DNA of 64,000 nt, from positions 62,001 to 126,000 of the forward strand of contig NZ_BONF01000010.1 of assembly GCF_016862575.1 (NCBI RefSeq), given 5' to 3'. The notes under the pieces are model-generated. The model saw only the letters and a list, made by a program, of their open reading frames with translations. It did no database searches and was not told the DNA's origin. Of the stretch, positions 7,735 to 40,872 are shown one piece after another. Origin of the DNA: Catellatospora bangladeshensis (GTDB lineage Bacteria; Actinomycetota; Actinomycetes; Mycobacteriales; Micromonosporaceae). The position numbers and the translations under genes were made by a program. Each line of letters opens with the position of its first letter. The stretch's first letter is position 1.

Positions 7735-7788
7735 GTTAGGAAGGGCACCTTCCTCTACGTATTGCGTTAACAAGGTGCCCTTCCTTAG
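7735..7788. repeat. Dispersed 3'-end palindrome, family A copy 1
   Basis: Inverted arms AAGGGCACCTT and AAGGTGCCCTT around a conserved spacer resembling TCTACGTATTGCGTTAA. The repeat supplies the TAA stop (7785-7787) of the phosphotransferase on the minus strand. See copies at 26057, 29407, 31927, 36269, 38839 and 40820. Confidence 0.9.
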
Positions 7789-8759
7789 GTCAAGGAGGTG
7801 ATGATCTCGGTGAGGAGGGTGAAGGACTTGGTGTCGTCGGCGGTGCCGGTGTGGGGGTGGCGGAAGCGGGCCAGGTCTACGGCGATGTCGGCGAGGGTCC
7901 AGCGCTCGCGGTAGAGGTCCAGCAGGGACGGGCTGGGGGTGTGGCCGGTGGCGTGGGCGTACGCGGTGAGCACTGACTCGTCGTCGGCGGCGAGCAGCCA
8001 CAGGTCGCGTTCGGGTGGGGCGAGCAGGGCGGTGTCCCAGTCGATGAGGCGCCAGCCGTCGGGGGTGAGCATGGTGTTGCCGGGGTGGGGCTCGCCGTGG
8101 GTGAGCACGGCCGGTGTGTCGCGGTGCTGCTCGACCAGGTTTTCGTAGCGGGCGAGCAGGTCGCGGACCGGCTTGGCGTGCGCGGCCAGCAGGCGGGCGG
8201 CGCGGTGGGCGTACGGGCCGCAGTCCGGGGTGTCACCGGTGAGGGTCGCGTGGAGGCCGTCGAGGTGAGGCACGGTGAAGTCGTCGCGCAGGGCGTCGCG
8301 GCGCGCGGCGGCCGGTGCGGTGTGCACGGCGACCACCATCTCCAGGACGGCTTCCCGGTGACCGGGTGCGGTGTACTCGCCCCAGCCGAAGCTCTGCCCG
8401 TCGACGTGCGGGTACAGCGCGGCGGCGAAGTCCCCGGCCACCCGCACCAGCGGCTCGCCGCCCCGCGCGGGCAACGGCGCGACGGCGAACGCCAGGCCGC
8501 TGTCGCGCAGACCGCGCGCCACGGACAGAGCCGCCCGCAGCCGCCGGAAGGCGCCGTCGAGCGACTCGGTGCCCGTGCGCCTGCGGTGCAGTTCGTCGAC
8601 GGTGAGGAACCACCTCCTGCCCGCGGCGTCGGCGACGGACCAGTGGTGGCTGCCCCAGCCCACCGGCTGGTACGCCAGCGTCACCGGCCCGATCCCCCAC
8701 CCCTCGTCCAGGGCGGCGACGAGTCTGTCCTCGGCCAGGTCAGCGGGGCGCGTCAGCAT
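7785..8759 (-). CDS. Phosphotransferase (aminoglycoside/choline-kinase-like fold)
   Basis: 324 residues. The catalytic loop HGEPHPGN and the metal-binding IDWDT place it in the APH/choline kinase superfamily, which transfers the ATP gamma phosphate to hydroxyls of antibiotics or small metabolites. The wider pattern (WDTALLAPPERDLWLL) resembles spectinomycin- or viomycin-phosphotransferase-like proteins, but most such chromosomal genes have no proven resistance role. ATG 8759 starts MLTRPADLAEDR; a longer in-frame start at 8780 has no better ribosome site. The stop codon lies inside family A repeat copy 1, which probably terminates the transcript. Confidence 0.85.
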   Translation of the reverse strand: MLTRPADLAEDRLVAALDEGWGIGPVTLAYQPVGWGSHHWSVADAAGRRWFLTVDELHRRRTGTESLDGAFRRLRAALSVARGLRDSGLAFAVAPLPARGGEPLVRVAGDFAAALYPHVDGQSFGWGEYTAPGHREAVLEMVVAVHTAPAAARRDALRDDFTVPHLDGLHATLTGDTPDCGPYAHRAARLLAAHAKPVRDLLARYENLVEQHRDTPAVLTHGEPHPGNTMLTPDGWRLIDWDTALLAPPERDLWLLAADDESVLTAYAHATGHTPSPSLLDLYRERWTLADIAVDLARFRHPHTGTADDTKSFTLLTEIITSLT

Positions 8760-8980
8760 GTCCGCCACCCTACGAACCACCCGGCCAAGGTCAACCGAAT
8801 TCGTCGCAGGCGGCCCGACCCAGTCTCATTTCTGACTCACCGCGCGTCCAGGGTGTTGGATCGATCATGCACATGCGGGCGCTGAACAGCGCGTTAACAG
8901 AGTCGTGGGGACGCTGCGCCACGTACCGCAACCTGGGACGGAGACTGCCCGCCCGCACCGCCGGTCTATATGGTCACCGC

Positions 8981-9982
8981 ATGGATCTATGGGTCGCGGT
9001 AGCCGGGTTCGGCGTCGGTGTCGTGGTCGGACTCACCGGCATGGGCGGCGGCGCGCTGATGACCCCGCTGCTGGTGCTGGTGTTCGGGGTGCCGCCGCTG
9101 AGCGCGGTCTCCAGTGACCTGGTGGCCGGCGCGATCATGAAGCCGTTCGGCGGGGCGGTGCACTGGCGGCGCGGCACCGTGGACCGGCGGCTGGTGCTGT
9201 GGCTGTGCGCGGGCAGCATCCCGGCCGCGTTCTGCGGCGTGTTCGTCGCGAAGGCGTTCGACAGCGAGGGTGCGTCGCAGGTCATCCAGTCGCTGCTCGG
9301 CGCCGCGCTGCTGCTCGCCGCGTCCGGGCTGGTGCTCAAGGCCTGGTTCGGGCTGCGCGAGCAGGCCCGTGCGGCAGCGGATCCCGCTCAGGGGGCCGTC
9401 GCGGGCGACCCGGCGCCTGTTCGCGTACGCATAATTCCGACCGTGCTGGTCGGAGCAGTGGGCGGGCTGGTGGTCGGGGTGACCTCGGTCGGCTCCGGCT
9501 CGCTGATCGTGATCGCACTGATGGCGCTCTATCCGGCGCTGCGGCCGCAGCAGCTCGTCGGCACCGACCTGGTGCAGGCGGTGCCGCTGGTCGCCGCCGC
9601 CGCGCTGGCCCACCTGCTGTTCGGCGACTTCCAGCTCGCGCTGACGGCGGCCCTGATCGCCGGCGCGGTGCCCGGCGTGCTGCTCGGCGCGGCCGTATCG
9701 TCCCGCGCTCCGGGCGGCCTGATCCGCTTCGCGCTGACCGTGGTTCTCACCGCCAGCGGCCTGAAGCTGCTCGGCGCGAGCACCCTCGCCGTCGGCATCA
9801 CCACCGCCGCCCTGCTCGCGGTCCTCCCCGCCCTATGGCTGCTCGCCCGCCACCGCCTCGGCCTCACCGCCGCCGACCCAGCCACTCCTCCCGCTGTCGT
9901 CCGCCAGCCCGACGGCCCCCCGGCCGGCGCGGCTCTCCAGGAGTCGCGCCGTCAGGGAACAGCGGAAGCCGCACCTCGTTAG
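8981..9982 (+). CDS. TauE/SafE-family membrane permease
   Basis: 333-residue inner-membrane protein of the TauE/SafE (DUF81) family, thought to export sulfite or sulfonates. Two homologous halves are visible, each opening with a glycine-rich helix: GLTGMGGGALMTPLL near residue 20 and VGVTSVGSGSLIVIAL near residue 170. About eight hydrophobic segments are present, with an Ala/Pro-rich cytoplasmic tail. ATG 8981 starts exactly at the first membrane helix; longer in-frame extensions upstream are not membrane-like. The 220 bp before it back to the divergent phosphotransferase shows no clear operator. Its last codons overlap the stop of the convergent sigma-factor gene. Cargo unknown. Confidence 0.87.
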   Translation: MDLWVAVAGFGVGVVVGLTGMGGGALMTPLLVLVFGVPPLSAVSSDLVAGAIMKPFGGAVHWRRGTVDRRLVLWLCAGSIPAAFCGVFVAKAFDSEGASQVIQSLLGAALLLAASGLVLKAWFGLREQARAAADPAQGAVAGDPAPVRVRIIPTVLVGAVGGLVVGVTSVGSGSLIVIALMALYPALRPQQLVGTDLVQAVPLVAAAALAHLLFGDFQLALTAALIAGAVPGVLLGAAVSSRAPGGLIRFALTVVLTASGLKLLGASTLAVGITTAALLAVLPALWLLARHRLGLTAADPATPPAVVRQPDGPPAGAALQESRRQGTAEAAPR

Positions 9983-11339: not shown

Positions 11340-11398
11340 CAGGCACATCCCTTCCGTTCTCCAGTTTCACGGAGACCGCAGGCCCCCGTCCCGGGAAC

Positions 11399-11426
11399 GA
11401 CGGGACAGGCGGGCCCGGATGTGACA
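11399..11426 (-). promoter_or_regulatory. ECF41-type promoter
   Basis: On the minus strand TGTCACA (11426-11420) and CGTC (11402-11399) are separated by 17 bases, the published form of ECF41 target promoters. It lies 60 bp upstream of the AhpD-like start, consistent with self-activation of the operon. Confidence 0.8.
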
Positions 11427-11465
11427 GATCGCCACCGGCTGGGACATACGTCACAGCCGGGCGGG

Positions 11466-12689: not shown

Positions 12690-12694
12690 CTGGG

Positions 12695-26009: not shown

Positions 26010-26056
26010 TCCGCCGACCACCAGGCGGCCCTCCCACCGCGTCCCACCTGACGACG

Positions 26057-26108
26057 AAGGAAGGGCACCTTCTTATCGTTTTCCGTGGTAGAAGGTGCCC
26101 TTCTTAAC
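26057..26108. repeat. Family A palindrome copy 2
   Basis: AAGGGCACCTT and AAGGTGCCCTT arms with the variant spacer CTTATCGTTTTCCGTGGTAG, almost identical to copy 3. It lies 48 bp after the fucosidase stop and 17 bp before the acyltransferase start, the only copy close to a 5' end. Confidence 0.9.
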
Positions 26109-26124
26109 GAAGGGAACCCGTGGC

Positions 26125-27402: not shown

Positions 27403-27434
27403 CGGACTGGCAGGCAGAAGATAGGGTGCACCAC

Positions 27435-28337: not shown

Positions 28338-29401
28338 CCGGTTTCGTCAGCCTCTCGGCGGCGATGGCCCGCGGGTTCTTCCGCGACCGCACCGCCATGT
28401 TCTTCACCATCCTGTTCCCGCTGATGTTCCTCGTGCTCTTCGGCGGCCTGTTCAAGGACAGCGGCGCGTCGAAGACGGACGTGCTGCAGATCGGCTCGGT
28501 GCCGGTGCTGGAGCAGCTGCCCGCCGAGGCCGCGGCCGGGATCGGCCAGGTGCTCGCCGTCGAGCGCACCGACGACCGCGCGGACGCGCTGGAGCAGGTA
28601 CGCAAGGGCGACAAGGCCGCCGCGCTGGAGCAGGTCGGCGGCGAGCTGATCGTGCACTACTCGGCCGCGGACCAGGTCAAGTCGGCCACCGTGCAGGGCA
28701 TCCTGGAGTCGCTCGTACAGGAGGCGAACCTGGCCGCCGCCGGGGTCACCACGCCAGCGCTGAAGCTGAGCGCCAAACCGGTCGAGGACGAGTCGCTCAA
28801 GGCCATCCAGTACATGACGCCGGGCCTGCTGGGCTGGGCCATCGCCACCGGCGCCACGTTCGGCGCGGCGCTGACGCTGGTCACCTGGCGGCAGAAGAAG
28901 ATCCTGCGCCGCCTGCGGCTGTCCCCGGTGCCGGTGACCTCGATCATCAGCGCCCGGGTCTCGGTCAGCATCGTCATCGCGCTGGTCCAGTCGGCCATCT
29001 TCATCGGCGTGGCGCTGCTGCCCTACTTCGGGCTCCAGCTGGCCGACCAGTGGTGGGGCTTCATCCCCATCATGATCGCCGGCACGCTCGCCTTCCTGTC
29101 GATCGGCCTGCTGGCCGGTGCCGTCGCCAAGACCGCCGAGGCGGCCAGCGCCATCGCCAACCTGATCACCCTGCCGATGGCGTTCCTGTCCGGCGCGTTC
29201 TTCCCGCTCGAAGGCGCCCCGGAGTGGCTGCGTACCGTCTCGGAGTTCCTGCCCCTCAAGCACCTGGTGTCGTCCATGCAGGACGTGATGGTCCGCGGCG
29301 AGGCGTTCTCCGTGACCCTCCCGGACATCGGCATCCTGCTCGGCTTCACCGTCGTCCTCTCGGCGGCCGCCGCCGCCCTCTTCCGCTGGGACGACGCCTA
29401 G
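28334..29401 (+). CDS. ABC-2-type exporter permease
   Basis: 355 residues. One N-terminal helix (AMFFTILFPLMFLVLFGGLF), an extracytoplasmic segment of about 130 residues, then five helices including the typical LPMAFLSGAFFPLEGAPEWL signature of ABC-2 permeases. It partners the ATPase encoded just upstream, with a four-base overlap. The gene ends six bases before family A repeat copy 3, which separates it from a convergent gene. Confidence 0.9.
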   Translation: MTGFVSLSAAMARGFFRDRTAMFFTILFPLMFLVLFGGLFKDSGASKTDVLQIGSVPVLEQLPAEAAAGIGQVLAVERTDDRADALEQVRKGDKAAALEQVGGELIVHYSAADQVKSATVQGILESLVQEANLAAAGVTTPALKLSAKPVEDESLKAIQYMTPGLLGWAIATGATFGAALTLVTWRQKKILRRLRLSPVPVTSIISARVSVSIVIALVQSAIFIGVALLPYFGLQLADQWWGFIPIMIAGTLAFLSIGLLAGAVAKTAEAASAIANLITLPMAFLSGAFFPLEGAPEWLRTVSEFLPLKHLVSSMQDVMVRGEAFSVTLPDIGILLGFTVVLSAAAAALFRWDDA

Positions 29402-29406
29402 AACAC

Positions 29407-29458
29407 AAGGAAGGGCACCTTCTTATCGTTTTCCGTAGTAGAAGGTGCCCTTCTTAAC
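29407..29458. repeat. Family A palindrome copy 3
   Basis: Almost identical to copy 2 (spacer CTTATCGTTTTCCGTAGTAG). Between convergent genes; it supplies the TAA stop (29454-29456) of the minus-strand NUDIX-GNAT gene. Confidence 0.9.
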
Positions 29459-30419
29459 CTCCGAGGGCGCGGGCCCGCTCGAAGACGCACAGCGCGTGAC
29501 GGTGTACCCCCTCGCCGGGGTCGAAGTCGAAAGCCCGCCGGAACCCGGCCTTCTCGCAGGCCCGCACCGAGGCGGTGTTAGCCGTCGCCGGGTCCGCCAC
29601 CACGAACCTGTTCCCCGGGAACCGCACCGGCACCACGTCGCGGACGTACTCCCAGATCAGCCTGGTGCCGAAGCCCCGGCCGGCGAGCGACGGCTCACCC
29701 ACCGCGTAGTCGATCGACACGCAGTCCGCGCCGTCACGGGTCACCCAGCGGGCCGTCTCCAGGTAGTCGTCCTGCGCGGCGAGCGGCGTCGACTGGATGA
29801 AGCCGACCGGCCGCCCGTCCAGCAGCACCACGTCCACCGCCGTCGGCGACACCCCGTCGATGCGCGGACCGTACTTCCCCTCGGCCGCCGCCACATCCGC
29901 CGGGACCTGCGCCCACCAGCGGCTCACATGCTCAGCCTGCAACCACCGCACCAGGTCCGGCAGGTCCGCCCGCGCCAGCGGCCGGAAGGTCAGCGGCGAC
30001 AGGTCCATCCCCAGCGCCCGCCGGTAGCGCCCGGCAACGTGCCGTGGCTGCACCAGCTCGGCCACCCGCTCCGGCCGCGCCCAGACGAACCGGTCGTGCT
30101 CGCCGTTCAGCACCACCTCGGCGTCCGCCCCGGCCTCGGCGGCGAACAGCGCCCAGCTGCCGGACAGGTCCACGGGCACCGGCACGAGCCCGGTCAGCCC
30201 CGTCTCCTCCCGCAGCTCCCGCACCGCCGTGGCCAGCAGCGCCTCCCCTGGCTCACGGCCTCCGGCCGGCGCGGTCCACGCCCACGGCCCGGCGTCGTCA
30301 GGCTCGTAACGCGTACGGTGCATGAGCAGCACCGGGCCGTCGGCGCGCCGCACCACCACGGTCGCGCCCAGCGGCCACTCCCCGGTGTCCCCGATCCGGG
30401 ACGCCTCCGGTCGCGCCAT
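29454..30419 (-). CDS. NUDIX hydrolase-GNAT acetyltransferase fusion
   Basis: 321 residues in two enzyme domains. Residues about 15-135 form a NUDIX domain with an exact box (GGREPGEALLATAV, then RELREETGL) for hydrolysing nucleoside diphosphate derivatives. Residues about 145-315 form a GNAT domain of the AAC(6')-Ib/IucB-like type, with HVSRWW near its start and the acetyl-CoA loop VGEPSLAGRGFGTRLI. ATG 30419 is followed by a good NUDIX start; AAGGAG lies further upstream. The two activities in one chain suggest a shared substrate, perhaps a nucleotide-linked amino sugar or antibiotic, but that is inference. The stop is inside repeat copy 3. Confidence 0.85.
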   Translation of the reverse strand: MARPEASRIGDTGEWPLGATVVVRRADGPVLLMHRTRYEPDDAGPWAWTAPAGGREPGEALLATAVRELREETGLTGLVPVPVDLSGSWALFAAEAGADAEVVLNGEHDRFVWARPERVAELVQPRHVAGRYRRALGMDLSPLTFRPLARADLPDLVRWLQAEHVSRWWAQVPADVAAAEGKYGPRIDGVSPTAVDVVLLDGRPVGFIQSTPLAAQDDYLETARWVTRDGADCVSIDYAVGEPSLAGRGFGTRLIWEYVRDVVPVRFPGNRFVVADPATANTASVRACEKAGFRRAFDFDPGEGVHRHALCVFERARALGG

Positions 30420-30629
30420 CTCACGCCGCTCCTTCCAGCCCACCGCCGCCACCAGCGGTCCTCGACCACCCGGCCGTACGACGATCCGTCGAGATCGCCG
30501 AAGTGCCTCCCACCTGCGACGGCGGTCTGTGCGAGTTTCGCGGCAGCGCCAGGAGCAGCAGATCGGCCCGTCTTCCGTAGCGGAAAACGCCTCCATTAAC
30601 GCACGCCTCCTCGGCTACCGTGCCTACCT

Positions 30630-31211
30630 GTGATCAGGACATCGCTGCGCGGCCGACTCGACGAGCTCGCCCCCCGTGTGCGCGCGTACCGCAGGCTGCG
30701 GGGCTACGACGAGAGCAGCCGGGTGACGATCGAGCAGCTCGACAGGCTCGAATCGCAGCTCGGCCTGCGGCTGCCGGAGGAGTATCACGCCTTCCTCACC
30801 CGCTTCGGCACCGGCGGGTTCGGCCTGCTCACCCCCGGCGAGGTCTACCTGCGCAGCCGGTGCGACATGAGCGGTGAACGGGCGTACGTGTCGTTGCCAT
30901 TCGCGGTGACCGACGGCCACGGCCTCGGCTGCTGCCCGGAGGACGAGATGCTCCACGGCTCCGTGCCTATCGCCGAGAACGGCTGCGCGTTCTACACCGC
31001 GCTCGCGGTGACCTCGGCGTCAGCCGGTACGGTCTGGCGCAACGACTACGCCGTCCCCGGGGCGGACGACTTGTTCTGCTGGGCCCCCGCCGGCATCACC
31101 CAGACGGATCCGGTGACGCCGCTCGGCTTCCTGTCCTGGATCGAGCAGATCGTGGCGTACCGCGTGCCCCGGCGCCCGCGGCGATGGTTCCTGCCGCGCC
31201 GCCTGCGCTGA
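30630..31211 (+). CDS. SMI1/KNR4-family protein, paralogue 1
   Basis: 193 residues. The SMI1/KNR4 core is visible as ESQLGLRLPEEYHAFLTRFGTGGFGL followed by beta strands and a WIEQIV end. In bacteria these proteins are usually immunity proteins against nuclease or deaminase toxins. The GTG start has no strong ribosome site. It is followed by a paralogue with about 60% identity in the same order, and both end in a basic tail (RRWFLPRRLR and RLWFLPRWLR). No toxin gene is in the neighbourhood. Confidence 0.82.
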   Translation: MIRTSLRGRLDELAPRVRAYRRLRGYDESSRVTIEQLDRLESQLGLRLPEEYHAFLTRFGTGGFGLLTPGEVYLRSRCDMSGERAYVSLPFAVTDGHGLGCCPEDEMLHGSVPIAENGCAFYTALAVTSASAGTVWRNDYAVPGADDLFCWAPAGITQTDPVTPLGFLSWIEQIVAYRVPRRPRRWFLPRRLR

Positions 31212-31324
31212 TCCGATCCCGCGCCCTCGCGTCCTCGCCTGGGCGAGACGAAACAACTGCTCGTCGCACCGTCCGCGGAGAAAGTGCCCTGTCCACGCAA
31301 GCCTGTTCCGCTACCGTCGTCGCT

Positions 31325-31903
31325 GTGCTCGAGACCTCGCTGACCCGCCGACTCGACGAAGTCGCCCCCGAAGTGGACGCGTACCGTCGGCGCTGGGGTT
31401 ACGGCGAGGGCAGCCGGGTGACGGCCGAGCAGCTCGACCAGCTCGAAGCCCGGCTCGGCCTGCCGCTGCCCGAGGAGTACCGCGCTTTCCTCATCCGCTT
31501 CGGCACCGGCGGCTTCGACCTGCTCACCCCCGAGCGGGTCCTCCACAAGAGCCAGTGCGACTACGGTGGCTGGAACCACGTGACGCTTCCGTTCGCGTTG
31601 GCGGACGGCCACGGCCTCAGCTGCTGCCGGGACGACCAACTGCTCAACGGCACGGTGGTCATCACCGAGGGCGGATGCGCGTTCTACACCGTGCTCGCGG
31701 TCACCTCGGTTTCGGCTGGCACCGTGTGGTGCAACGACTACGCACCGCCCGGGTCCGACGACGAGTTCTGCTGGGCGCCCCCGGGTCTCCCACAGTCGGA
31801 CCCGGTGCCGCCGCTCGGCTTCCTGTCCTGGATCGAGCAGATCCTGACGCGCCGGGCGACCGGCCGTCCGCGGCTGTGGTTCCTGCCGCGCTGGCTGCGC
31901 TGA
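31325..31903 (+). CDS. SMI1/KNR4-family protein, paralogue 2
   Basis: 192 residues, GTG start 31325. It aligns along its whole length with the preceding gene: EARLGLPLPEEYRAFLIRFG, then CAFYTVLAVTSVSAGTVW and PPLGFLSWIEQI. The four or so conserved cysteines (SCC, GGCAFY, FCW) are shared by both copies. The pair looks like a tandem duplication that has since diverged, as expected for immunity genes matching different toxin variants. Repeat copy 4 follows and separates it from a convergent response-regulator gene. Confidence 0.82.
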   Translation: MLETSLTRRLDEVAPEVDAYRRRWGYGEGSRVTAEQLDQLEARLGLPLPEEYRAFLIRFGTGGFDLLTPERVLHKSQCDYGGWNHVTLPFALADGHGLSCCRDDQLLNGTVVITEGGCAFYTVLAVTSVSAGTVWCNDYAPPGSDDEFCWAPPGLPQSDPVPPLGFLSWIEQILTRRATGRPRLWFLPRWLR

Positions 31904-31926
31904 TGCCCAGCCCTCGCCCGGGATGG

Positions 31927-31979
31927 GTTAAGAAGGGCACCTTCTACTACGCATAGCGTTAAGAAGGTGCCCTTCCTTT
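31927..31979. repeat. Family A palindrome copy 4
   Basis: AAGGGCACCTT and AAGGTGCCCTT arms with spacer CTACTACGCATAGCGTTAAG. Between convergent genes; its last base is the last base of the response-regulator TGA (31979-31981, minus strand). Confidence 0.9.
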
Positions 31980-32623
31980 CAGGCGTTGAGGTATGCCAGG
32001 ACGGCGAGGACGCGGCGGTTGTCGTCGTCGGAGGGGGCCAGGTCGAGCTTGGTGAAGATGCTGTTGGTGTGCTTGCCGACGGCGCTGTCGGAGAGGAACA
32101 GCTGCTGGGCGATGGCGGCGTTGGAGCGGCCCTCCGCCATGAGCGCCAGCACCTCGCGCTCACGGGGAGTGAGCCGGGCCAGGGGCGCGTTGCGGACCGG
32201 CTGGCGCATCAGCTTCGCGATGACCTCCGGGTCCATGGCCGTGCCACCGGCCGCTACGCGGCGGACGGCGTCGAGGAACTGGTCGGCGTTGAAGACGCGG
32301 TCCTTGAGCAGGTAGCCGATGCCACCGGTGCCGTCGGCGAGCAGCTCGCGGGCGTACAGCTGCTCGACGTGCTGGGACAGCACCAGCACCGGCAGGCCGG
32401 GCACCTGGCGGCGGGCGTCCAGCGCCGCGCGCAGCCCCTCGTCGGTGTTCGTGGGCGGCAGCCGCACGTCCACCACCGCCACGTCAGGACGGTGCGCCAG
32501 CAGCGCGGTGAGCAGGTCCGGGCCGGTCTCCACGGCGGCGGCGACGGTGCACCCGTGCGCCTCCAGCAGGCGGACCAGTCCCTCTCTCAGGAGGTAGAGG
32601 TCCTCGGCGAGGACAACACGCAC
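31979..32623 (-). CDS. NarL/LuxR-family response regulator
   Basis: 214 residues. Receiver with the acidic pair in LAEDLY and phospho-acceptor Asp52 (VVDVRLPP), then a LuxR-type helix-turn-helix (SNAAIAQQLFLSDSAVGKHTNSIFTKL). The GTG start at 32623 lies 37 bp inside the histidine-kinase gene, in another frame, with GGAGA just upstream, so the pair is translationally coupled. The divergent ABC exporter at 34772 is a plausible target. Confidence 0.92.
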   Translation of the reverse strand: MRVVLAEDLYLLREGLVRLLEAHGCTVAAAVETGPDLLTALLAHRPDVAVVDVRLPPTNTDEGLRAALDARRQVPGLPVLVLSQHVEQLYARELLADGTGGIGYLLKDRVFNADQFLDAVRRVAAGGTAMDPEVIAKLMRQPVRNAPLARLTPREREVLALMAEGRSNAAIAQQLFLSDSAVGKHTNSIFTKLDLAPSDDDNRRVLAVLAYLNA

Positions 32624-34647
32624 GGTATCTCCATCGTCAGCACGGTCGGGCCGCCCTGCGGGCTGTGCAGGGCCAGGGTTCCGTCGAATGTAGCGAGCCG
32701 CCGGCGCAGCCCGCGCAGGCCGCTGCCCCGGGCCGGGTCGGCGCCGCCGTGGCCGTCGTCGGTGACGGTGACCCGCAGCAGGCCGCCTACGTGGCGGATG
32801 TCGACGCCGACCCGGTGCGCGCCGGCGTGCCGGGCGGCGTTGGCCAGCGCCTCGGCGACGGCGAAGTACGCCGCGGTGGCGATCGGGGCGGGGGGCTGAC
32901 CGGGCAGCTCGGCGTGCACGTCGACGGGCAGCGCCGCGTCCAGCGCGAGCGCGCGTACGGCGTCGACCAGGCCGCGTTCGGCGAGCACCGGCGGGTGGAT
33001 GCCGCGGACCAGGTCGCGCAGGTCGGACAGGGCCGCGGCGGACGTCTCCCGGGCCTGGGCGAGCAGCTCCCGGGCGGCGGCGGGGTCGCGGTCCATGAGC
33101 TGCTCGACCGTGCCGAGGCTGAGGCCGACGGCGACGAGCCGGGCCTGTGCGCCGTCGTGCAGGTCGCGCTCGATGCGGCGCAGCTCGGCGCTCTGCGCGT
33201 CGACGGCGTCGGCGCGGGTCTGCGCCAGGTGCTCGACCCGTTCGCTGAGCCGCGCGGTGCGGCCGGGCGCGAGCAGCAGCAACGCCCAGCCGACGATCGT
33301 GTACAGCACCGGCCGGGCCAGCACCACCCCGAGCAGGCCGAGGAGCAGCCCGACCGGCACCGAGACCCAGCCCGGCACGGCGGCCAGCGCCGGGAAGGCG
33401 AGGGCCAGCAGCTGCCAGCAGTACCAGGGACTGACCCAGAACCCGGTGATCAGAAACAGCGGCAGCCCCCACAGCGGCCAGAACAGCGCCTGCCAGAACA
33501 GCCCGAAGTAGCCGACGCCGATCAGCGCCCCGGGCAGCACCGCGCAGAGCGCGACGAGCGGCGCGGTCGCCATCCAGGCCAGGTCGCGCCAGGTCGCCGG
33601 GTCGCCGAGCACCCAGGGGAAGAACCCGGCCCGGATCGCGCCGTCGCGGGTCGCGTACAGGCTCCGCCCGACCCGGTAGCGCCCGTCCGGGCCGGGCTCA
33701 CCGAGCGGCTCCCGCGGCCGGTACGGGTCGGGCAGCTCCACGCCGCCCCACTTCGCGCACAGCCGCCGGTACTGATTCATCATGGGCCGGACGGCGTAGC
33801 TGATCCAGGCGATGCCGAACCCGCCGCTGACCATGGTCAGCAGCAGCGTCAGCGCGAACACGGCGAACCCGGTCAGCGACAGCCCGAGCAGCAGCACCGC
33901 CTTCCAGGTGTCGTGCCCGCCGCGGCGCAGCCACTCGCCGAACCCCGAGGTGTGCCACCAGCTGCGGCTCGCGTGCCCGAGCCAGTAGCGGGACCACAGC
34001 CCGTGGGCCCGCAGCAGCATCGGCCCGGCCAGCGCACCGGCGGCGACGGCGGCCAGCCCCGCCGCGACCGCGAGCCACGTCGGACGGCCGTCCAGCACGC
34101 CGCCCCAGGACGTCGCGGCCGTCGGCAGCCAGGACCACGTCCCGCCGCCCGCCGCGGCCTCACTCCCCGATGCGGCCGCGGCGCTCACCCCGGCCGCTCC
34201 CGCGAGCGCGGCCACCCCGGCGACGATCAGCAGCGGCCCGAGCAGCGCGGGCACCGCCCCGAGCGGCGCGAGCAGCACCAGCCAGCCCCAGTCCCGCGCG
34301 GTGGCCGGGTCGTCGGACAGCCACTTCATGCGCAGGAAGAAGCGGGGGTACGCGGGCGACTTGAACAGCTGCCCGTCGTGCTCGTACCAGCCGTCGGCGC
34401 GCTGCGCCGGCACCGGCGCGGATCCGCTCTGGTAGGGCGTCTCCACCGCCACCCCGCCCCAGGCCAGCGCCAGCCGCCGGGAGAACCCGGTGAGCCGGCG
34501 GCAGACGCCCACGGCGGCCGGGTACGTGATCACCACGGCGACCGAGGCCATCAGGGGCACTGACGCGGCGAGCCCGGCCACCGCGAGCAGCGCGAGGGCC
34601 AGCAGGCGGAGCGGGGCGAGGGCGTACGACCGGATCATGCCCGCCAT
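32587..34647 (-). CDS. Sensor histidine kinase with a large membrane domain
   Basis: About 686 residues (ATG 34647; ATG 34638 also possible). Residues 1-400 carry about seven to eight membrane helices with soluble loops, a membrane 'sensor' layout known from NarL-partner kinases of actinomycetes. Two loops are similar to each other (CRRLTGFSRRLALAWGGV and YRRLCAKWGGVELPDPY), suggesting an internal repeat. Then come HisKA_3 with the phospho-acceptor in RRIERDLHDGAQARLVAVG and a HATPase with NAARHAGAHR and DDGHGG. It overlaps the response-regulator gene by 37 bp and is divergent from an ABC-2 exporter. Stimulus unknown; a cell-envelope or drug signal is inference. Confidence 0.88.
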   Translation of the reverse strand: MAGMIRSYALAPLRLLALALLAVAGLAASVPLMASVAVVITYPAAVGVCRRLTGFSRRLALAWGGVAVETPYQSGSAPVPAQRADGWYEHDGQLFKSPAYPRFFLRMKWLSDDPATARDWGWLVLLAPLGAVPALLGPLLIVAGVAALAGAAGVSAAAASGSEAAAGGGTWSWLPTAATSWGGVLDGRPTWLAVAAGLAAVAAGALAGPMLLRAHGLWSRYWLGHASRSWWHTSGFGEWLRRGGHDTWKAVLLLGLSLTGFAVFALTLLLTMVSGGFGIAWISYAVRPMMNQYRRLCAKWGGVELPDPYRPREPLGEPGPDGRYRVGRSLYATRDGAIRAGFFPWVLGDPATWRDLAWMATAPLVALCAVLPGALIGVGYFGLFWQALFWPLWGLPLFLITGFWVSPWYCWQLLALAFPALAAVPGWVSVPVGLLLGLLGVVLARPVLYTIVGWALLLLAPGRTARLSERVEHLAQTRADAVDAQSAELRRIERDLHDGAQARLVAVGLSLGTVEQLMDRDPAAARELLAQARETSAAALSDLRDLVRGIHPPVLAERGLVDAVRALALDAALPVDVHAELPGQPPAPIATAAYFAVAEALANAARHAGAHRVGVDIRHVGGLLRVTVTDDGHGGADPARGSGLRGLRRRLATFDGTLALHSPQGGPTVLTMEIPCVLSSPRTSTS

Positions 34648-34771
34648 CGTCGCCGATCGGCCGGATGCGGCGCACTGGCCCCAGGTGCCTGAAGGGGGTG
34701 GGGTTTTGTGCACCCCCGCTCGGCAGTCAGCGTCATACCGGCCGTGGCGCGCCGAATCTAGCGTCTTCGGC

Positions 34772-35506
34772 ATGGCAGTCATCGAAGTTAGCGGACTCAC
34801 CAAACGATACGGCGACCGCACGGTCGTGAACGGCGTCTCGTTCACCGTCGCCGAGGGCGAGATCTTCGGCATCCTCGGCGAGAACGGCGCCGGCAAGACC
34901 ACCACCGTCGAGTGCATCGCGGGCCTGCGCAGCCCCGACGGCGGCGCGATCAGCGTGCTCGGCCTGGACGCGCGGCGCGACCACGAGCGGCTGCGCGGCC
35001 TGGTCGGCGTGCAGCTGCAGGAGAGCCAGCTGCAGGACCGGCTGCGCGTCGGCGAGGCGCTGCAGCTGTACGCGTCCTTCTACCCCGACCCCGCCGACTG
35101 GCGCGAGCTGCTCGCCTCGGTCGGCCTCACCGAGCAGGTGAACACCCCGTACGCGAAGCTGTCCGGCGGGCAGAAGCAGCGGTTGTCGATCGCGCTGGCC
35201 CTGATCGGCAACCCGCGCGTGGCGATCCTGGACGAGCTGACCACCGGCCTGGACCCGCGGGCCCGGCGCGAGATCTGGAAGCTGATCCGCGCGATCCGCG
35301 ACCGCGGGGTGACCGTGCTGCTGGTGACGCACTTCATGGACGAGGCCGAGCGGCTGTGCGACCGGCTGGCCGTGCTGGTCGACGGCGGCCTGGCCGCGCT
35401 GGACACCCCGGCCGGGCTGATCGCGGGCGTCGGCGACGTCGACGGCTACCGCGCCAACCTCGAGGACGCGTTCCTCGCCCTGACCGCCCCCTCCCACGAC
35501 AGCTGA
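34772..35506 (+). CDS. ABC-2 exporter ATP-binding protein
   Basis: 244 residues. Walker A GENGAGKT, Q-loop VQLQESQLQ, signature LSGGQKQR, Walker B VAILDELTTGLD (the usual DEPT reads DELT) and switch VTHF. It lacks most of the C-terminal extension seen in the paralogue at 27435. Followed after 13 bases by its permease and divergent from the two-component genes, so probably regulated by them. Confidence 0.9.
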   Translation: MAVIEVSGLTKRYGDRTVVNGVSFTVAEGEIFGILGENGAGKTTTVECIAGLRSPDGGAISVLGLDARRDHERLRGLVGVQLQESQLQDRLRVGEALQLYASFYPDPADWRELLASVGLTEQVNTPYAKLSGGQKQRLSIALALIGNPRVAILDELTTGLDPRARREIWKLIRAIRDRGVTVLLVTHFMDEAERLCDRLAVLVDGGLAALDTPAGLIAGVGDVDGYRANLEDAFLALTAPSHDS

Positions 35507-35519
35507 CCAGGAGCTCGCC

Positions 35520-36263
35520 ATGTCCGCCCTGTCCCGCCTGACCGGCACCGAGGCCCGCCTCTTCCTGCGCGAGCCGGTCGGCGCCTTCTTCGCCCTGGCC
35601 TTCCCCGCGGTGCTCGTCGTGGTGCTCGGCAACGCCATCCCGGCCTTCAGTGAACCGTCGGCCGACTTCGACGGCGAACGGCCGATCAACCTCTACTTGC
35701 CCGTGGTGCTGGCGCTGGCCATCGGCACGGTCACCATGACCAGCCTGCTCGGCGTGCTCGCGCAGTACCGCGAGCGCGGCGTGCTGCGCCGCCTGGCCAC
35801 CACCCCGGTCAAGCCGTCCGCGCTGATCGGCGCGCAGCTCGGCGTGAACGTGGCCGCGCTGCTCGTCGGCTCGGCGCTGATGATGATCGCGGCGGCGGTC
35901 GCGTTCGGCAGCCGCGGCCCCGAGAGCTGGCCCGCGCTGCTGGTGGCGTTCGTGCTGGGCGCCGCCGCGATGACCGGCGTAGCGCTGCTGATCGCCGCCG
36001 TCGCCCCGAACGCCCGCGCCTCGGCCGGCATCGGCACGCTGGTGTACTTCCCGATGCTGTTCTTCGCCGGCGTCTGGACCCCCGGCCCGATGATGCCGGA
36101 CGCGGCGCAGCGCATCGCCGACTTCACCCCGCTCGGCGCGGCCTCCCAGGCTATGCAGGCCGCCTGGTCCGGCGACTGGCCCCAGCCCCTGCACCTGGCC
36201 GTCACCGCCGGCTACGCCCTCGTCACCTGCGCCCTCGCCAGCCGCCTCTTCCGCTGGCAGTAA
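35520..36263 (+). CDS. ABC-2-type exporter permease
   Basis: 247 residues with six predicted helices; AFFALAFPAVLVVVLGNAIP near the N-terminus and YFPMLFFAGVWTPGP near residue 180 are typical ABC-2 features. GGAGCTCGCC precedes the ATG. It forms the exporter with the ATPase encoded upstream. Substrate unknown. The stop is six bases from repeat copy 5. Confidence 0.9.
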   Translation: MSALSRLTGTEARLFLREPVGAFFALAFPAVLVVVLGNAIPAFSEPSADFDGERPINLYLPVVLALAIGTVTMTSLLGVLAQYRERGVLRRLATTPVKPSALIGAQLGVNVAALLVGSALMMIAAAVAFGSRGPESWPALLVAFVLGAAAMTGVALLIAAVAPNARASAGIGTLVYFPMLFFAGVWTPGPMMPDAAQRIADFTPLGAASQAMQAAWSGDWPQPLHLAVTAGYALVTCALASRLFRWQ

Positions 36264-36268
36264 CCCCG

Positions 36269-36321
36269 AAAGGAAGGGCACCTTCTTAACGCTATGCGTA
36301 GAAGAAGGTGCCCTTCTTAAC
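36269..36321. repeat. Family A palindrome copy 5
   Basis: AAGGGCACCTT and AAGGTGCCCTT arms with spacer CTTAACGCTATGCGTAGAAG, the reverse complement of the copy 4 spacer type. Between convergent genes. Confidence 0.9.
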
Positions 36322-36342
36322 GTCCCGGGGGTGGACGGCGGA

Positions 36343-36585
36343 TCACATCGGCGGCGGCGGGACCGGGTCGCTCTCCTCGACGACCCGCCGGTCGACCGGC
36401 GTGTTGGTCACCACGGTGCGGCGGCGGCCGCTCCAGATGACGGTGGTCAGGATCAGCCCGGCGGCGCCGACGGCCATCAGGATCCAGCCGACCACGTCCA
36501 GGTCGAGACCGCTGATGCTCACGTCGAGCGCGAAGGTGAGGATCGCCCCGACGGCGATCAGGAACAAGCTCGCGCCGATACCCAT
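36343..36585 (-). CDS. DUF6458-like small membrane protein
   Basis: 80 residues with two helices (ASLFLIAVGAILTFAL and VGWILMAVGAAGLILTTVIW), then a WSGRRRTVVT boundary and a proline-rich tail. This matches a small two-helix family common in actinomycetes, without known function. AAGGAGG precedes the ATG. Confidence 0.8.
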   Translation of the reverse strand: MGIGASLFLIAVGAILTFALDVSISGLDLDVVGWILMAVGAAGLILTTVIWSGRRRTVVTNTPVDRRVVEESDPVPPPPM

Positions 36586-36622
36586 GTCAGCCTCCTTCCG
36601 GCGAGTGCTCGCCTCGGGGCCG

Positions 36623-37843
36623 CTATACCCGCCCGTGCCCGCCGTGAACCTCCTCCGCCGCGGCCGGGCGATGGTGGTCCAGCACCGCGTGCGGATCCGG
36701 GTGCTGCCCCGCCGGGTCGGCGTGGACCAGCGCCGCCGTCAGCTTCGGCACCGCGTGCAGGAGCCGGTGCTCGGCGTCCACCGCGATCGCGTGGGCCCGC
36801 GCCAGATTCAGCCCGGCGTCCACCTCGACCGCGCACTCGGCGCGCAGCCGGTGCCCGATCCAGCGCAGCCGCACCTCGCCCACGCCCAGCACGCCCGGGG
36901 TGTCGCGCAGCGTCTGCTCCACCGTGTCGACCAGCTTCGGGTCGACCGCGTCCATCAGCCGCCGGTACACCTCCCGCGCGGCGTCCTTGAGCACCACCAG
37001 GATCGCCACCGTGATCAGCAGGCCCACCGCGGGGTCGGCCCACCACCAGCCCAGCGCCGCGCCCCCCGCGCCGAGCAGCACCGCCAGCGAGGTGAATCCG
37101 TCGGTACGCGCATGCAGGCCGTCCGCGACGAGCGCCGCCGAGCCGATGCGCCGCCCGACCACGATCCGGTAGCGCGCCACCAGCTCGTTGCCCGCGAACC
37201 CGACCAGTGCCGCCGCGGCGACGTACGGCAGGTGCCGCACCTCCTGCGGGTCCAGCAGGCGGCGCACCGCCTCGTACCCGGCGAACGCGGCGGAGGCGGC
37301 GATGGTGAGCACGATGAAGATGCCCGCGAGGTCCTCGGCCCGGCCGTAGCCGTACGTGTACGACCGGGTCGGGCTGCGCCTGCCCAGCACGAACGCGACG
37401 CCGAGCGGCACGGCGGTCAGCGCGTCGGCGACGTTGTGCAGCGTGTCGCCGAGCAGGGCGACGGAGTGCGAGAAGTACACGATGACGGCCTGTAGGACGG
37501 CGGTGACGCCGAGCACGACCAGGGAGATCCACAGCGCGCGCAGGCCCTCACGGGACGACTCCATCGCCGAGTCCACCTTGTCGGCGGCGTCGTGTGAGTG
37601 CGGGCTGACGAGGTGCCCGACCTGGTGCCGCAGCCGGGCGAGGAGACCGCCGTGAGCGTGCTCGCCCTCGTGCCCGTGGCCGTGCCCGTCGCCGCGCCCG
37701 TCGCCGTGGCTGTGGCTGTGGCCATCGTGCTCGTGACCGTCGTGGCCGTGTGGGTGGCCGTGATCGTGGTCAGCGGTCGGGGCGGAGCCGTGGGCATGAC
37801 CGTGGGTTTCGTCGCCGTGCTGGTGGTCGTGACCCGCACCCAT
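36623..37843 (-). CDS. Cation diffusion facilitator (zinc-type) with a histidine-rich N-terminus
   Basis: 406 residues. The first 65 residues are a His/Asp/Gly-rich tail (HDHGHPHGHDGHEHDGHSHS), a probable metal-binding chaperone region. Six membrane helices follow with the transport-site motifs HNVAD (helix 2) and HARTD (helix 5), then the C-terminal ferredoxin-like cytoplasmic domain (VLGVGEVRLRWIGHRLRAECAVEV). The His/Asp pairs indicate proton-driven Zn(II) export, with Cd or Co possible. No metal-regulator gene is adjacent. Confidence 0.92.
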   Translation of the reverse strand: MGAGHDHQHGDETHGHAHGSAPTADHDHGHPHGHDGHEHDGHSHSHGDGRGDGHGHGHEGEHAHGGLLARLRHQVGHLVSPHSHDAADKVDSAMESSREGLRALWISLVVLGVTAVLQAVIVYFSHSVALLGDTLHNVADALTAVPLGVAFVLGRRSPTRSYTYGYGRAEDLAGIFIVLTIAASAAFAGYEAVRRLLDPQEVRHLPYVAAAALVGFAGNELVARYRIVVGRRIGSAALVADGLHARTDGFTSLAVLLGAGGAALGWWWADPAVGLLITVAILVVLKDAAREVYRRLMDAVDPKLVDTVEQTLRDTPGVLGVGEVRLRWIGHRLRAECAVEVDAGLNLARAHAIAVDAEHRLLHAVPKLTAALVHADPAGQHPDPHAVLDHHRPAAAEEVHGGHGRV

Positions 37844-37934
37844 GCCGTGCCTCCCGCCCTCCGGCGCGGGGAGTCTCCCGCGCTCGGCTCATCTCATCTG
37901 CGTATACCACCGGCGGCGCGCCCCATGCCGCGAC

Positions 37935-38774
37935 TCACCGGCCGGCCGTGATGCGGTCGGCGAGGCGTACCACGGCGTCCATGACCTGATCACCCTCGAA
38001 CAGCACCGCGTCGTTATGATCGGCGCCCTCCACCACCGTGACCTCCACCGGCCCGGCGGCCGCGGCGGCCACCGCGCGGCTCTGGTCCGGCGGCACGACG
38101 GAGTCCGCGGTGCCGTAGACGACCGCCGTCGGCACGTCGATCTTCGCGATCTGCTCCGCCAGCGGGAAGCGGTCCCGCAGCATGGCCCGCACCGGCAGGA
38201 ACGGGTAGTGCGCTGCGGCGGTCGCGGCCAGGTCCGTGAACGGCGAGCGCAGCAGCAGCCCCGCGGGCGGATGCTCGGCCGCCAGCCCGGTCACCACGGC
38301 CCCGCCCAGGCTCTCTCCGAAGTAGATCAGCCGGTCCGGCCGCACCCCAGCGTCGTCCACCAGATAGCGGTACGCCGCCCGCACGTCCTCGGCGAGCCCC
38401 TGCTCGGACGGGCTGCCCGGATTCCCGCCGTACCCGCGATAGTCGAACAGCAGCACGGTGAACCCGCGCTCGGCCAGCTCCGCCGCGACGGAGGCCCGCC
38501 CGGCCCGGTTGCCGCCGTTACCGTTCGCCACCAGCACGGTCACGCCGCGGTCCGGCCCCGTCGGCGGCACCAGCCACGCGCCGAGGGAGAGCCCATCGCT
38601 GGTACGCAGCGTGACGTCGCGGGCCCCGGGCAGCGCGGCGGCGGCCGGGCCGGGCGAGGACGCGTCGGGCAGGTAGATGAGCCGCCGTTGCAGCAGCCAC
38701 AGCGCCGTCACCAGCAACGCGACGATCAGCAGAACGATCAGCGCGGGCCGGATCAGCGTGGATGCCTTCAGCAC
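37935..38774 (-). CDS. Membrane-anchored alpha/beta hydrolase (ABHD17/ABHD13-like)
   Basis: 279 residues. An N-terminal helix (LIVLLIVALLVTALWLL) followed by QRRLIYLPD and a serine hydrolase domain with YRGYGGN, nucleophile elbow FGESLGG, acid in GTADSVVP and histidine in GADHND. This layout matches the BEM46/ABHD13-17 group, which hydrolyses acyl esters at the membrane. Substrate unknown. It lies downstream of the FAD monooxygenase gene on the same strand, separated by repeat copy 6. Confidence 0.85.
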   Translation of the reverse strand: MLKASTLIRPALIVLLIVALLVTALWLLQRRLIYLPDASSPGPAAAALPGARDVTLRTSDGLSLGAWLVPPTGPDRGVTVLVANGNGGNRAGRASVAAELAERGFTVLLFDYRGYGGNPGSPSEQGLAEDVRAAYRYLVDDAGVRPDRLIYFGESLGGAVVTGLAAEHPPAGLLLRSPFTDLAATAAAHYPFLPVRAMLRDRFPLAEQIAKIDVPTAVVYGTADSVVPPDQSRAVAAAAAGPVEVTVVEGADHNDAVLFEGDQVMDAVVRLADRITAGR

Positions 38775-38838
38775 CGCACCATTGTCCCGCCCGAATGCCG
38801 CTTCCGGAACGGCAGCCGAGCGCTCCTGCCAGTGAGAC

Positions 38839-38891
38839 GTTAAGAAGGTGCCCTTCCTCTACGTAAAGCGTTAAGAAGGTGCCCTTCCTTT
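38839..38891. repeat. Family A palindrome copy 6 (arms in direct orientation)
   Basis: Two direct copies of TTAAGAAGGTGCCCTTCCT around CTACGTAAAGCG; one arm is flipped relative to copies 1-5. The repeat runs to the first base of the FAD-monooxygenase TGA (38891-38893, minus strand). Confidence 0.88.
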
Positions 38892-40048
38892 CAGTAGGTG
38901 GGCAGGTGCAGGGCGGTGGTGCGGTCGTCCGCCTCGCGGAGCATCAGGTCGCGGAAGTAGGGCCGGTTGAGCAGGCTGTTGCGCAGGCGGGCGGCCCAGG
39001 CGCGGCGTGGGGCGAGGAAGCGGCCGGTGTTCTGTCCGCCTTGTCGACCGCGCTCGGCGTAGCCGCGCAGCAGTCGCTCGTACCGGCCGAACGCGACGGT
39101 GTGGTCGCCGTCGGCGGCCAGCTCACCTGCCAGCACGTACGCGCCGACGATCGCGTTGCCCGCGCCCATGCCGCCGATGGTGGCCCCGCACGCGGCGTCG
39201 CCGAGCAGCGCGATCCGGCCCTGTGACCAGGGGGTGACGTCGATCCGGCAGATCGCGTCGAAGTACAGGTCGGTGGCGTCGGGCAGCGCCGCGAGCAGGC
39301 GTGGAGTGTGCCAGCCCATGCCCGCGAGCGCCCTGGCGATCAGCTCGCGCTGCCGGGCCGTGTCACGGCGGTCGTAGTCCAGCTCGGGTGACGCGAAGGC
39401 CACGAAGGCGCCCGCCCGCGCCCGATCGCGGTGGTCGCCGCCGACGCTCGCCATCCGGCCGGGTTCGTTGTAGAGCAGGCTGGTCCGGCCCAGCCCGGGA
39501 AAGCCCGGCACCGCCCAGGTCGCCACGTAGTAGCCCTGGTGGCGCAGGTAGCGCTCGTGCGGGCCCCAGGCCAGCCGCCGCACCGCCGAGCGCACCCCGT
39601 CCGCGCCGACGACCAGGTCGAACACGGCCCGCTCACCGGAGGCGAAGCCGACCTCGACCCCGTCGGGGGTCTGCGCGAGCGCGGTCACCGAGTCGTCGAA
39701 CCGGTACGCGGCCCACGGCGCGCTGTGCTCGTACAGGATCCTGCCCAGGTCGCCGCGCAGCACCTCCAGCTCGCCTCCGGCGAAGTCGGCGGGCAGCTCC
39801 ATCAGCCGGCGGTCCTGCGCGTCGACGAAGCGCATCGGCGAGCCGCCGGTCTGCACCTCGCGCAGTTCGTCGAGCACTCCCATGCGCTCCAGCACGGTCA
39901 GGTGCGCGCCCCGGAAGTCGACCGCCCCGCCGCCGGTGCGCGGCCCGGACGCGACCTCCACCACGGTGGGCCGGAACCCGGCCCGGCCGAGCCAGTACGC
40001 CAGGGCCGGTCCGGCGATGCCGGCCCCCGAGATCAACACGCTGCGCAT
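38891..40048 (-). CDS. FAD-dependent aromatic-type monooxygenase (PHBH family)
   Basis: 385 residues. The ADP-binding GAGIAGPALAYWLGRAG (residues 8-24), a DGVRSAVRR segment that resembles the DG motif, and GDAACGATIGGMGAGNAI (about residues 280-297) are the three FAD contacts of p-hydroxybenzoate-hydroxylase-like enzymes, which use NADPH and O2 to hydroxylate or epoxidise substrates; Tet(X)-like and Rif-monooxygenase-like drug inactivators also fall here. GGGGAGG precedes ATG 40048. It is divergent from a tetR gene with two palindromes between, suggesting substrate-induced control. Confidence 0.9.
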   Translation of the reverse strand: MRSVLISGAGIAGPALAYWLGRAGFRPTVVEVASGPRTGGGAVDFRGAHLTVLERMGVLDELREVQTGGSPMRFVDAQDRRLMELPADFAGGELEVLRGDLGRILYEHSAPWAAYRFDDSVTALAQTPDGVEVGFASGERAVFDLVVGADGVRSAVRRLAWGPHERYLRHQGYYVATWAVPGFPGLGRTSLLYNEPGRMASVGGDHRDRARAGAFVAFASPELDYDRRDTARQRELIARALAGMGWHTPRLLAALPDATDLYFDAICRIDVTPWSQGRIALLGDAACGATIGGMGAGNAIVGAYVLAGELAADGDHTVAFGRYERLLRGYAERGRQGGQNTGRFLAPRRAWAARLRNSLLNRPYFRDLMLREADDRTTALHLPTY

Positions 40049-40065
40049 GACGCCTCCCCAGAATT

Positions 40066-40110
40066 GTGTCCGGCGGACACCGTTTCTAACTGTGTATGCT
40101 AGACACAGTT
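40066..40110. promoter_or_regulatory. Paired palindromic operators between monooxygenase and tetR genes
   Basis: GTGTCCGGCGGACAC (40066-40080) and AACTGTGT-N7-ACACAGTT (40088-40110) lie back to back in the 81 bp divergent gap. Both are perfect in the arms and share a GTGTC/TGTGT-like edge. They are the probable sites for the TetR regulator. Confidence 0.75.
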
Positions 40111-40129
40111 TTGTGAGGAGGGCAATCGG

Positions 40130-40840
40130 GTGACGTCGGACTTCCTGTGGGCGGTACGCGCCCAGCCCACGCGCGGCCCGAAACCCGCGCTCACCCTGGA
40201 CCGGATCGCCGAGGCCGCCGTCGCTGTCGCCGACGCCGAGGGGCTCGCCGCCGTGTCCATGCAGCGCGTCGCCGCCGATCTCGGCTTCACCAAGATGTCG
40301 CTCTACCGCTACCTGCCCGGCAAGGCCGAGCTGGTGGCCCTCATGGTCGAGCACGCCGTCGGCGCCCCGCCCGAGCTGGACCCCGCCGACTGGCGCACCG
40401 CTCTGCGCGACTGGGCCCACCACCTGCTCGCCGCGTACGTGCGTCACCCCTGGGCACTGGAGGCGACCGTCGGCCCCCGCCCCCTCGGCCCGCACGAGCT
40501 GGGCTGGATGGAACACGCCCTCGCCGCACTGTCCGGCACCGGCCTGTCCGGCACCGAACGCCTCGACACCATCGCCGTGCTGTCCGGCCACGTCCGCATG
40601 ATCGCCCAGCAGGCCGCCGCCGCCCGCCACCCCGACGCGCAGTTCAGCGCCGGCATCACCGCCGCCCTGACCGGCCACGCCGACCGCTTCCCCGCCCTGG
40701 CCGCGACCATGACCGCCGCCGCCACCGAATCCGGCCACGACCAGGCCTTCGAGTTCGGCCTCGCCCGCCTCCTCGACGGCCTCCACACCCTCATAAGAGG
40801 AAGAACACCCTCCAAACACAAAGGAAGGGCACCTTCTTAA
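40130..40840 (+). CDS. TetR-family regulator
   Basis: 236 residues. HTH VSMQRVAADLGFTKMSLYRYL (about residues 44-64) with a C-terminal domain of the TetR_C_33 type. GTG 40130 has GAGGAGGGC upstream. The reading frame continues into repeat copy 7, so the last residues (KGRAPS) and the stop are repeat-encoded. It is probably the repressor of the divergent monooxygenase gene. Confidence 0.9.
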   Translation: MTSDFLWAVRAQPTRGPKPALTLDRIAEAAVAVADAEGLAAVSMQRVAADLGFTKMSLYRYLPGKAELVALMVEHAVGAPPELDPADWRTALRDWAHHLLAAYVRHPWALEATVGPRPLGPHELGWMEHALAALSGTGLSGTERLDTIAVLSGHVRMIAQQAAAARHPDAQFSAGITAALTGHADRFPALAATMTAAATESGHDQAFEFGLARLLDGLHTLIRGRTPSKHKGRAPS

Positions 40841-40872
40841 CGCTATGAGTAGAGGAAGGGCACCTTCTTAAC
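40820..40872. repeat. Family A palindrome copy 7 (arms in direct orientation)
   Basis: Two direct copies of GGAAGGGCACCTTCTTAAC around GCTATGAGTAGA, the mirror image of copy 6. It contains the tetR stop codon (40838-40840). Confidence 0.88.

Follow-up and report, generated by a model that had tools for sequence, protein, structure and literature searches.

A REPIN-like family of 52-base hairpins placed mostly at stop codons in Catellatospora bangladeshensis

Catellatospora (Micromonosporaceae) is a soil actinomycete. In a 64,000-nucleotide stretch of the C. bangladeshensis genome (contig NZ_BONF01000010.1, positions 62,001 to 126,000; hereafter the window, in whose numbering positions are given), seven similar palindromes lie at or near gene ends, and the locus raises the question of what these palindromes are, what they might do behind a stop codon and how they came to be repeated. 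The genome was found to carry a few hundred near-identical 52-base hairpins, most of them no more than 10 bases from a gene's stop codon. We consider it fairly probable that this high-copy family, which resembles the REPINs (doublets of repetitive extragenic palindromic, REP, sequences), acts directly after stops as a U-tract-poor transcription terminator and/or as a stabilizer of mRNA 3' ends.

Sequence and copy number

Each of the seven palindromes is a copy of a single directional 52-bp element, AAGGAAGGGCACCTTCTTAACGCTATGCGTAGARGAAGGTGCCCTTCTTAAC (hereafter Family A), and exact 11-nt arms were found in 7/7 copies where an earlier note, made from the sequence alone, had placed seven related palindromes with shared arms. 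The arm GAAGGGCACCTTC occurs 550 times (267 + 283 by strand) in the genome of the window (G000; 8.83 Mb, 115 contigs, 99.69% complete), and the arm pattern read backwards occurs 0 times, so the window copies are not due to chance. Copies were collected from a 1.09-Mb sample of this genome (contigs C1, C2, C4, C5 and C6 whole, with C10:1-146000), the contigs being chosen as first listed or window-bearing and being arm-rich relative to the genome (112 vs 62 per Mb). Among the 64 copies obtained, 62 have an arm spacing of 31 (short form) and 2 a spacing of 64 (long form, 85 bp), in which 33 extra nt between the left arm and the center add stems to the fold. The arms are near-invariant and the interior is variable; across 61 copies, base composition is at background level immediately beyond positions 1-52, and the conserved ends are AAGG and TTAAC. 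Arms are mostly paired (64 pairs vs 31 singles, one mismatch allowed), most singles being, by eye, look-alikes in coding sequence. No Rfam family matched the window at gathering score, and no description of Family A was found in the open-access literature within the topics searched.

Placement relative to stop codons

Genes were called with a purpose-built coding model (4-base context, 155 training open reading frames, ORFs), so individual calls may be wrong; one ORF, ending at 31979, was missed. The left (AAGG) end of the element faces the same-strand stop, and the element starts at -3 to +10 nt from that stop in 41/64 copies. For the 51 copies whose gap is bounded by a same-strand stop, 41 fall in this interval vs 14.3 ± 2.3 expected when each copy is randomly re-placed in its own gap (2000 rounds, maximum 21); the enrichment at stop codons to which the earlier note had pointed is strong in the sample. 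The median left-end offset is 1 nt among the 48 copies with a same-strand stop to the left. At the right end, an opposite-strand stop lies at -6 to +10 nt in 15/64 copies, and a stop is near one end or the other in 46/64. The stop is made at the element junction (offset -1 or -2) in 8 copies and lies inside the element in 2. Gene context was scored for 61 copies: 29 convergent (one flagged within a predicted gene), 29 tandem and 3 divergent.

The window copies are as follows.

Copy 1, 7735..7786, minus strand, short form: TAA of the minus-strand gene 7785-8768 is made at the junction, with a 2-nt overlap
Copy 2, 26057..26108, plus strand, short form: between two plus-strand genes, 47 nt past the stop of 24753-26009 and 16 nt ahead of the called start of 26125-27402
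Copy 3, 29407..29458, plus strand, short form: between convergent genes, 5 nt past the same-strand TAG of 28334-29401; supplies TAA to the minus-strand ORF ending at 29454
Copy 4, 31927..31978, minus strand, short form: abuts TGA of the minus-strand ORF ending at 31979 (the ORF absent from the gene calls; relatives conserve its end)
Copy 5, 36270..36321, plus strand, short form: 6 nt past TAA of 35520-36263
Copy 6, 38839..38890, minus strand, short form with GCA right arm: abuts TGA of the minus-strand gene 38891-40048
Copy 7, 40821..40872, plus strand, short form with GCA right arm: TAA inside the element ends the plus-strand ORF 40130-40840, whose last residues are element-encoded

That five copies touch or provide a stop, as first reported, holds: TAA in copies 1, 3 and 7 (in copy 3 for the opposite-strand ORF) and an abutting TGA in copies 4 and 6.

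Other hairpins at the same gene ends

Hairpins were also scored at 3' ends without Family A, a score of at least 30 being taken as strong and one simple shuffle per set serving as control. Strong hairpins were found at 83/182 convergent 3' ends of the genome (0 shuffled) and at 96/316 tandem 3' ends (5 shuffled), and 60 of the 83 convergent-end hairpins begin 5-25 nt past the stop. Family A accounts for 56/323 strong 3'-end hairpins of the sample; 49 more belong to other families of at least 4 copies.

Among 90 orthologous 3' ends comparable in the stretches fetched from relatives, Family A is present in 66 and not in 24. An unrelated strong hairpin stands at 14/24 of the element-free ends (0/24 shuffled), these 24 rows deriving from 12 query copies and being far from independent, since three query copies give 15 of them. 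Behind the ortholog of gene 35520-36263, for example, Family A is present in G007 and G005, and strong hairpins lacking the family arm are present in G001, G002, G010, G006 and G003, the G002 and G010 hairpins being similar to one another. At C10:3450, where the two genomes are 95% identical up to the site, Family A in G000 corresponds to a different hairpin in G007, and the alignment stops at the last base ahead of the element. Because 14/24 element-free ends of relatives bear unrelated strong hairpins, Family A elements appear to fill a terminator slot.

Repetition among the remaining hairpins was also recorded. Of the 267 strong 3'-end hairpins outside Family A, 49 are repeated in 4 copies or more and 27 in 2-3 copies. 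Three further 3'-end families have 15, 13 and 11 members (e.g. C5:133151-133222, C4:134662-134741, C1:85616-85683). Two other palindrome families, both with many matches in G008 and G009, were seen on C5: GCGTTGATCATGAACTT ... ACTTCATGATCGACGC (L017:8756-8818), dispersed and with 5 sample copies at 3' ends, and CAGTTTCGGGGAAAGTGC ... GCACTTTCCCCGAAACTG (L017:12950-13008), located ~40 bp after a Family A copy.

Hairpin structure and covariation

Covariation was measured on an alignment of 88 of 126 distinct short copies, from which window positions 18001-64000 were excluded; copies had been collected by the similarity of their arms, a choice that biases the set toward arm pairing. The long hairpin, in which the two arms pair, has 41 cells changed on both sides (21.6 ± 3.5 in shuffles), 84.7% of cells paired (82.6 ± 0.3) and a covariation of 0.097 (0.071 ± 0.004), values reached in 0/500 shuffles in each case, and it exceeds six slid versions in double-change cells and in covariation score. 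The long hairpin is conserved, with compensatory changes. The rival fold of one mini-hairpin per arm was rejected, its covariation being no higher than in shuffles. Predicted RNA energies of three forward short forms were -34.6, -29.3 and -25.7 kcal/mol (the last with the GCA right arm), and 0/200 shuffles were as low; the long forms gave -54.0 and -47.7 kcal/mol and two reverse strands -30.4 and -19.2 kcal/mol. One feature of an intrinsic terminator is thus present, a stable predicted RNA hairpin shortly after the stop codon.

The right arm occurs in two states. Window copies 6 and 7, in which the earlier note had seen one arm flipped, do carry GCA in place of TGC in the right arm. A free flip of either arm is not borne out: short copies from several Catellatospora (158 in all) have as left triplet GCA (153), GCG (3), GCC (2) or TGC (0), and as right triplet TGC (104), GCA (48) or another (6). 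A G precedes GAAGG in 48/48 GCA right-arm copies (32/104 TGC copies), and in 30/48 the GCA right arm is identical to the left arm plus tail over 19 nt. Since the change is always on the right side and carries these marks, the GCA right arm is best seen as the left arm copied in direct orientation, then inherited and spread. The triplet has switched in 1/22 orthologous pairs between G000 and G007, a stable inherited state and not a frequent inversion; the earlier note had suggested a recombination or templated process treating arms as units.

Evolution between close species

Nearly all Family A sites are common to G000 and G007. For 26 copies on C5 and C10, 22 were paired by script with a same-site copy in G007. 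One copy (C5:332858) has been lost in G007 with a remnant left, and of three unpaired copies C5:258510 and C10:93927 (degraded) have a G007 counterpart and C10:3450 has none. No clean recent insertion of Family A was seen among the sites compared. The earlier proposal of insertion by recognition of stop codons is therefore unsupported, as selection for a terminator slot explains the position equally well.

Across the 22 pairs, arms differ at 28/770 positions vs 173/1710 in flanks; interiors of equal length (18 pairs) differ at 50/339 positions, and the length class differs in 4/22 pairs. For the 6 pairs with at least 4 interior changes, the G007 core was found at another site of an 82-copy pool in 6/6, and both cores occur at least twice in the pool in 5/6; random changes match a pool core in 0 to 0.66% under a null of uniform changes that is blind to mutation hotspots. 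Since another haplotype of the family often takes the place of an interior, and length class differs in 4/22 pairs, these linked changes suggest that copies exchange interiors by short-tract gene conversion. Conversion as the sole process was rejected; the diversity of combinations seen at positions 20, 23, 25 and 27 means that recurrent mutation acts too. Gene conversion of REPs has been proposed before (Higgins 1988, by its title as cited in PMC3116915).

Distribution among genomes

A 39-nt core matched at least 38 loci in GTDB genomes, and among the matches listed, which may not include the records of the window itself, 38/38 were in Catellatospora. The GCA arm occurs 54 to 284 times per strand in 10/11 Catellatospora genomes, 5 times in total in G009 and 0-3 times in each of 30 genomes of the order outside the genus, which agrees with the lineage specificity first suggested. 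The GCC arm was counted 272 times in G009, 231 in G004, 125 in G020 (another genus) and at most 5 times in each of the other 38 genomes. In G004 both arm types are found together (156 GCA, 231 GCC), which would suit two coexisting populations of the element; a contamination of 6% is given for this genome.

A covariance model matched 20/61 Micromonosporaceae genomes. Besides the three Catellatospora searched, at least 78 matches were found in each of seven genomes of other genera (G020, G056, G061, G063, G070, G076, G082), such high counts being lower bounds, and 0 to 12 in the congeners G013, G043, G057, G073 and G081; the best matches in weak genomes resemble ordinary hairpins. At the 30 best-scoring loci of G009, G020, G070 and G082, a same-strand gene is on the left in 29/30, and 21 loci start at -3 to +10 nt from the stop, 11 of them at exactly 5 nt. 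Related sets with other arm letters occur patchily in other Micromonosporaceae, where the earlier note had mentioned related strings.

Search for a spreading enzyme or parent element

The earlier note had likened the palindromes to REPs or MITEs (miniature inverted-repeat transposable elements) or to a lineage-specific terminator. A REP-like family in a terminator-like, stop-enriched position was found, and the implied partner, a REP-associated tyrosine transposase (RAYT), was not: PF01797 had 0 matches in G000 (99.69% complete) and in G004, G006, G008 and G009. PF01797 matches occur in 6/11 Catellatospora genomes, and as a partner this family was rejected, since 9/9 of its loci in relatives have no arm within the ~3 kb fetched. 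The proteins are 150-157 aa where the frame is whole and would, by size, be IS200-like. PF07282 (TnpB type) was rejected as well: it is present in 11/11 Catellatospora genomes, including G009 with its other arm type, and so does not track Family A.

No parent insertion sequence (IS) with Family A arms as ends was found in the stretches fetched. Two arms 1.3 kb apart in G002 were considered as such ends and rejected, being a single Family A copy with an IS inserted into its loop (L165:10254-11593). That IS encodes a 413-aa transposase, which we take from its protein sequence to be IS30-like. The right end of C5 and the left end of C6 fall inside an element; the place matching the C5 end is an ordinary short copy in G007, and the C6 end did not map to the stretch compared. 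No target-site duplication was seen by eye in the listed flanks, which were given no systematic test. A phage origin was rejected, 0 viral contigs containing the 30-nt core.

Repeats of other kinds were also recorded. A dispersed repeat of ~60-190 bp (L009:8290-8595, on C5) matches G007 dozens of times, on both strands. In the window, 30678-31211 and 31373-31903 are tandem paralogous genes (DNA identity ~79%), and a 288-nt stretch is tandemly duplicated at 2376-2951 (86% identity).

Interpretation

Position, structure and the hairpins that replace Family A in relatives point to a terminator or mRNA 3'-end role. In the mechanism we propose, hairpins of 52 bp (sometimes 85 bp), with a variable spacer between two conserved inverted arms, would work directly past the stop codon, where the RNA hairpin would end transcription or protect the transcript; between convergent genes the element probably works in both directions. 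The family would first have spread as a non-autonomous repeat through some activity, and interior exchange between copies may now proceed mainly through short-tract gene conversion. In the 13 genomes of PMC8355165, the majority of predicted terminator hairpins are no more than 20 nt away from the stop, and those of Mycobacterium tuberculosis mostly have no pure U trail.

Several results weigh against this role. No clean U tract was found after the stem, and no full-length copy in window positions 25500-41500 passes a T-run scan, whose matches in copies 2, 3 and 7 are confined to one-arm sub-hairpins (5/6 matches; 2.5 ± 1.5 expected in shuffles). Two of five covariation measures are not above shuffles, the number of doubly changed pairs (6 vs 4.2; 37/500), which is also equalled or exceeded in 4/6 slid versions, and that of further pair types (22 vs 21.8; 291/500). 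No stop lies near either end in 18/64 copies, and 10/24 element-free orthologous ends have no strong hairpin, the 40821 site supplying four of these and no end with one. In E. coli, REPs located 15 nt or less from a stop reduce translation of the gene upstream (as cited in PMC12306157), so a translational role is possible instead.

In that translational account the hairpin behind the stop slows ribosome release and tunes expression, as for E. coli REPs near stops. The 1-nt median offset and the 15-nt distance given in the same source agree with it; we nonetheless judge it quite improbable, since the 15/64 copies that also abut the stop of a convergent gene, and the ordinary hairpins of the same genome at 5-25 nt past stops, fit termination better. 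A selfish REP/MITE-like repeat without host function, found after stops only since insertions are tolerated there, is in our estimate rather unlikely, although high copy number, patchy presence between congeners and REPIN-like architecture are what it predicts, and one copy is interrupted in its loop by the presumably IS30-like IS. That interruption would match the description of REPs as IS targets in the available text of PMC1525189. Tolerance, however, predicts an even spread within the gap and not the observed excess at -3 to +10 nt, and the arms are conserved above flanks between species, compensatory changes are retained, and relatives bear unrelated hairpins at the same gene ends. Finally, the palindrome might matter as DNA, as a binding site for a nucleoid protein, gyrase or recombinase. 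E. coli REPs bind proteins of this kind, and near-invariant arms around a variable interior would suit such a site; the orientation of the element relative to the upstream stop, and the hairpins lacking the arm sequence that relatives bear at the corresponding gene ends, make it highly improbable.

If the terminator or 3'-end role is correct, a single repeat provides some hundreds of genes of one bacterium with their 3' ends, and unrelated hairpins take each other's place after a given stop codon, which makes terminator turnover testable by comparing close species. A broader version, which we regard as unlikely, would have Micromonosporaceae place preformed terminator hairpins at translation stops through a system independent of RAYT, which also rewrites the hairpin interiors by exchange between copies, so that a large part of all gene ends would carry interchangeable mobile terminators.

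Comparison with known systems

Among known systems, REPINs (Bertels and Rainey 2011, PMC3116915), as described in the accessible text, share with Family A two conserved inverted arms, a less conserved spacer, hairpin formation, high copy number, an extragenic location and lineage specificity. They differ in having a RAYT gene and random extragenic spread, whereas PF01797 is absent from this genome and Family A hugs stops, a non-random placement within extragenic space. The GTAG- and CGTC-tagged REPs (PMC3733652, as far as its text was available) are likewise short, high-copy palindromic repeats, and the CGTC class apparently also has no dedicated transposase; the ends of Family A, AAGG and TTAAC in 61 copies, bear neither tag. 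Because a RAYT, the end tags and random placement were looked for and not found, Family A is REPIN-like by architecture and is not filed as a RAYT-associated REP, which raises the question of how such a family can propagate and remain uniform when no RAYT is detected. With intrinsic terminators that have a weak or no U trail (PMC8355165) it shares a strong hairpin near the stop and the lack of a clean U tract; that study, in its available portion, saw no sequence conservation near the stop, whereas in Family A one sequence recurs hundreds of times. In the uptake-signal (DUS/USS; DNA uptake sequence/uptake signal sequence) terminators of Neisseria and Pasteurellaceae (Kingsford 2007, PMC1852404, available text), inverted pairs of a repeated short motif also form hairpins after genes; single motifs, common there, are the minority here (31 singles vs 64 pairs), and Family A has arms that are nearly always paired at a fixed spacing around a conserved spacer.

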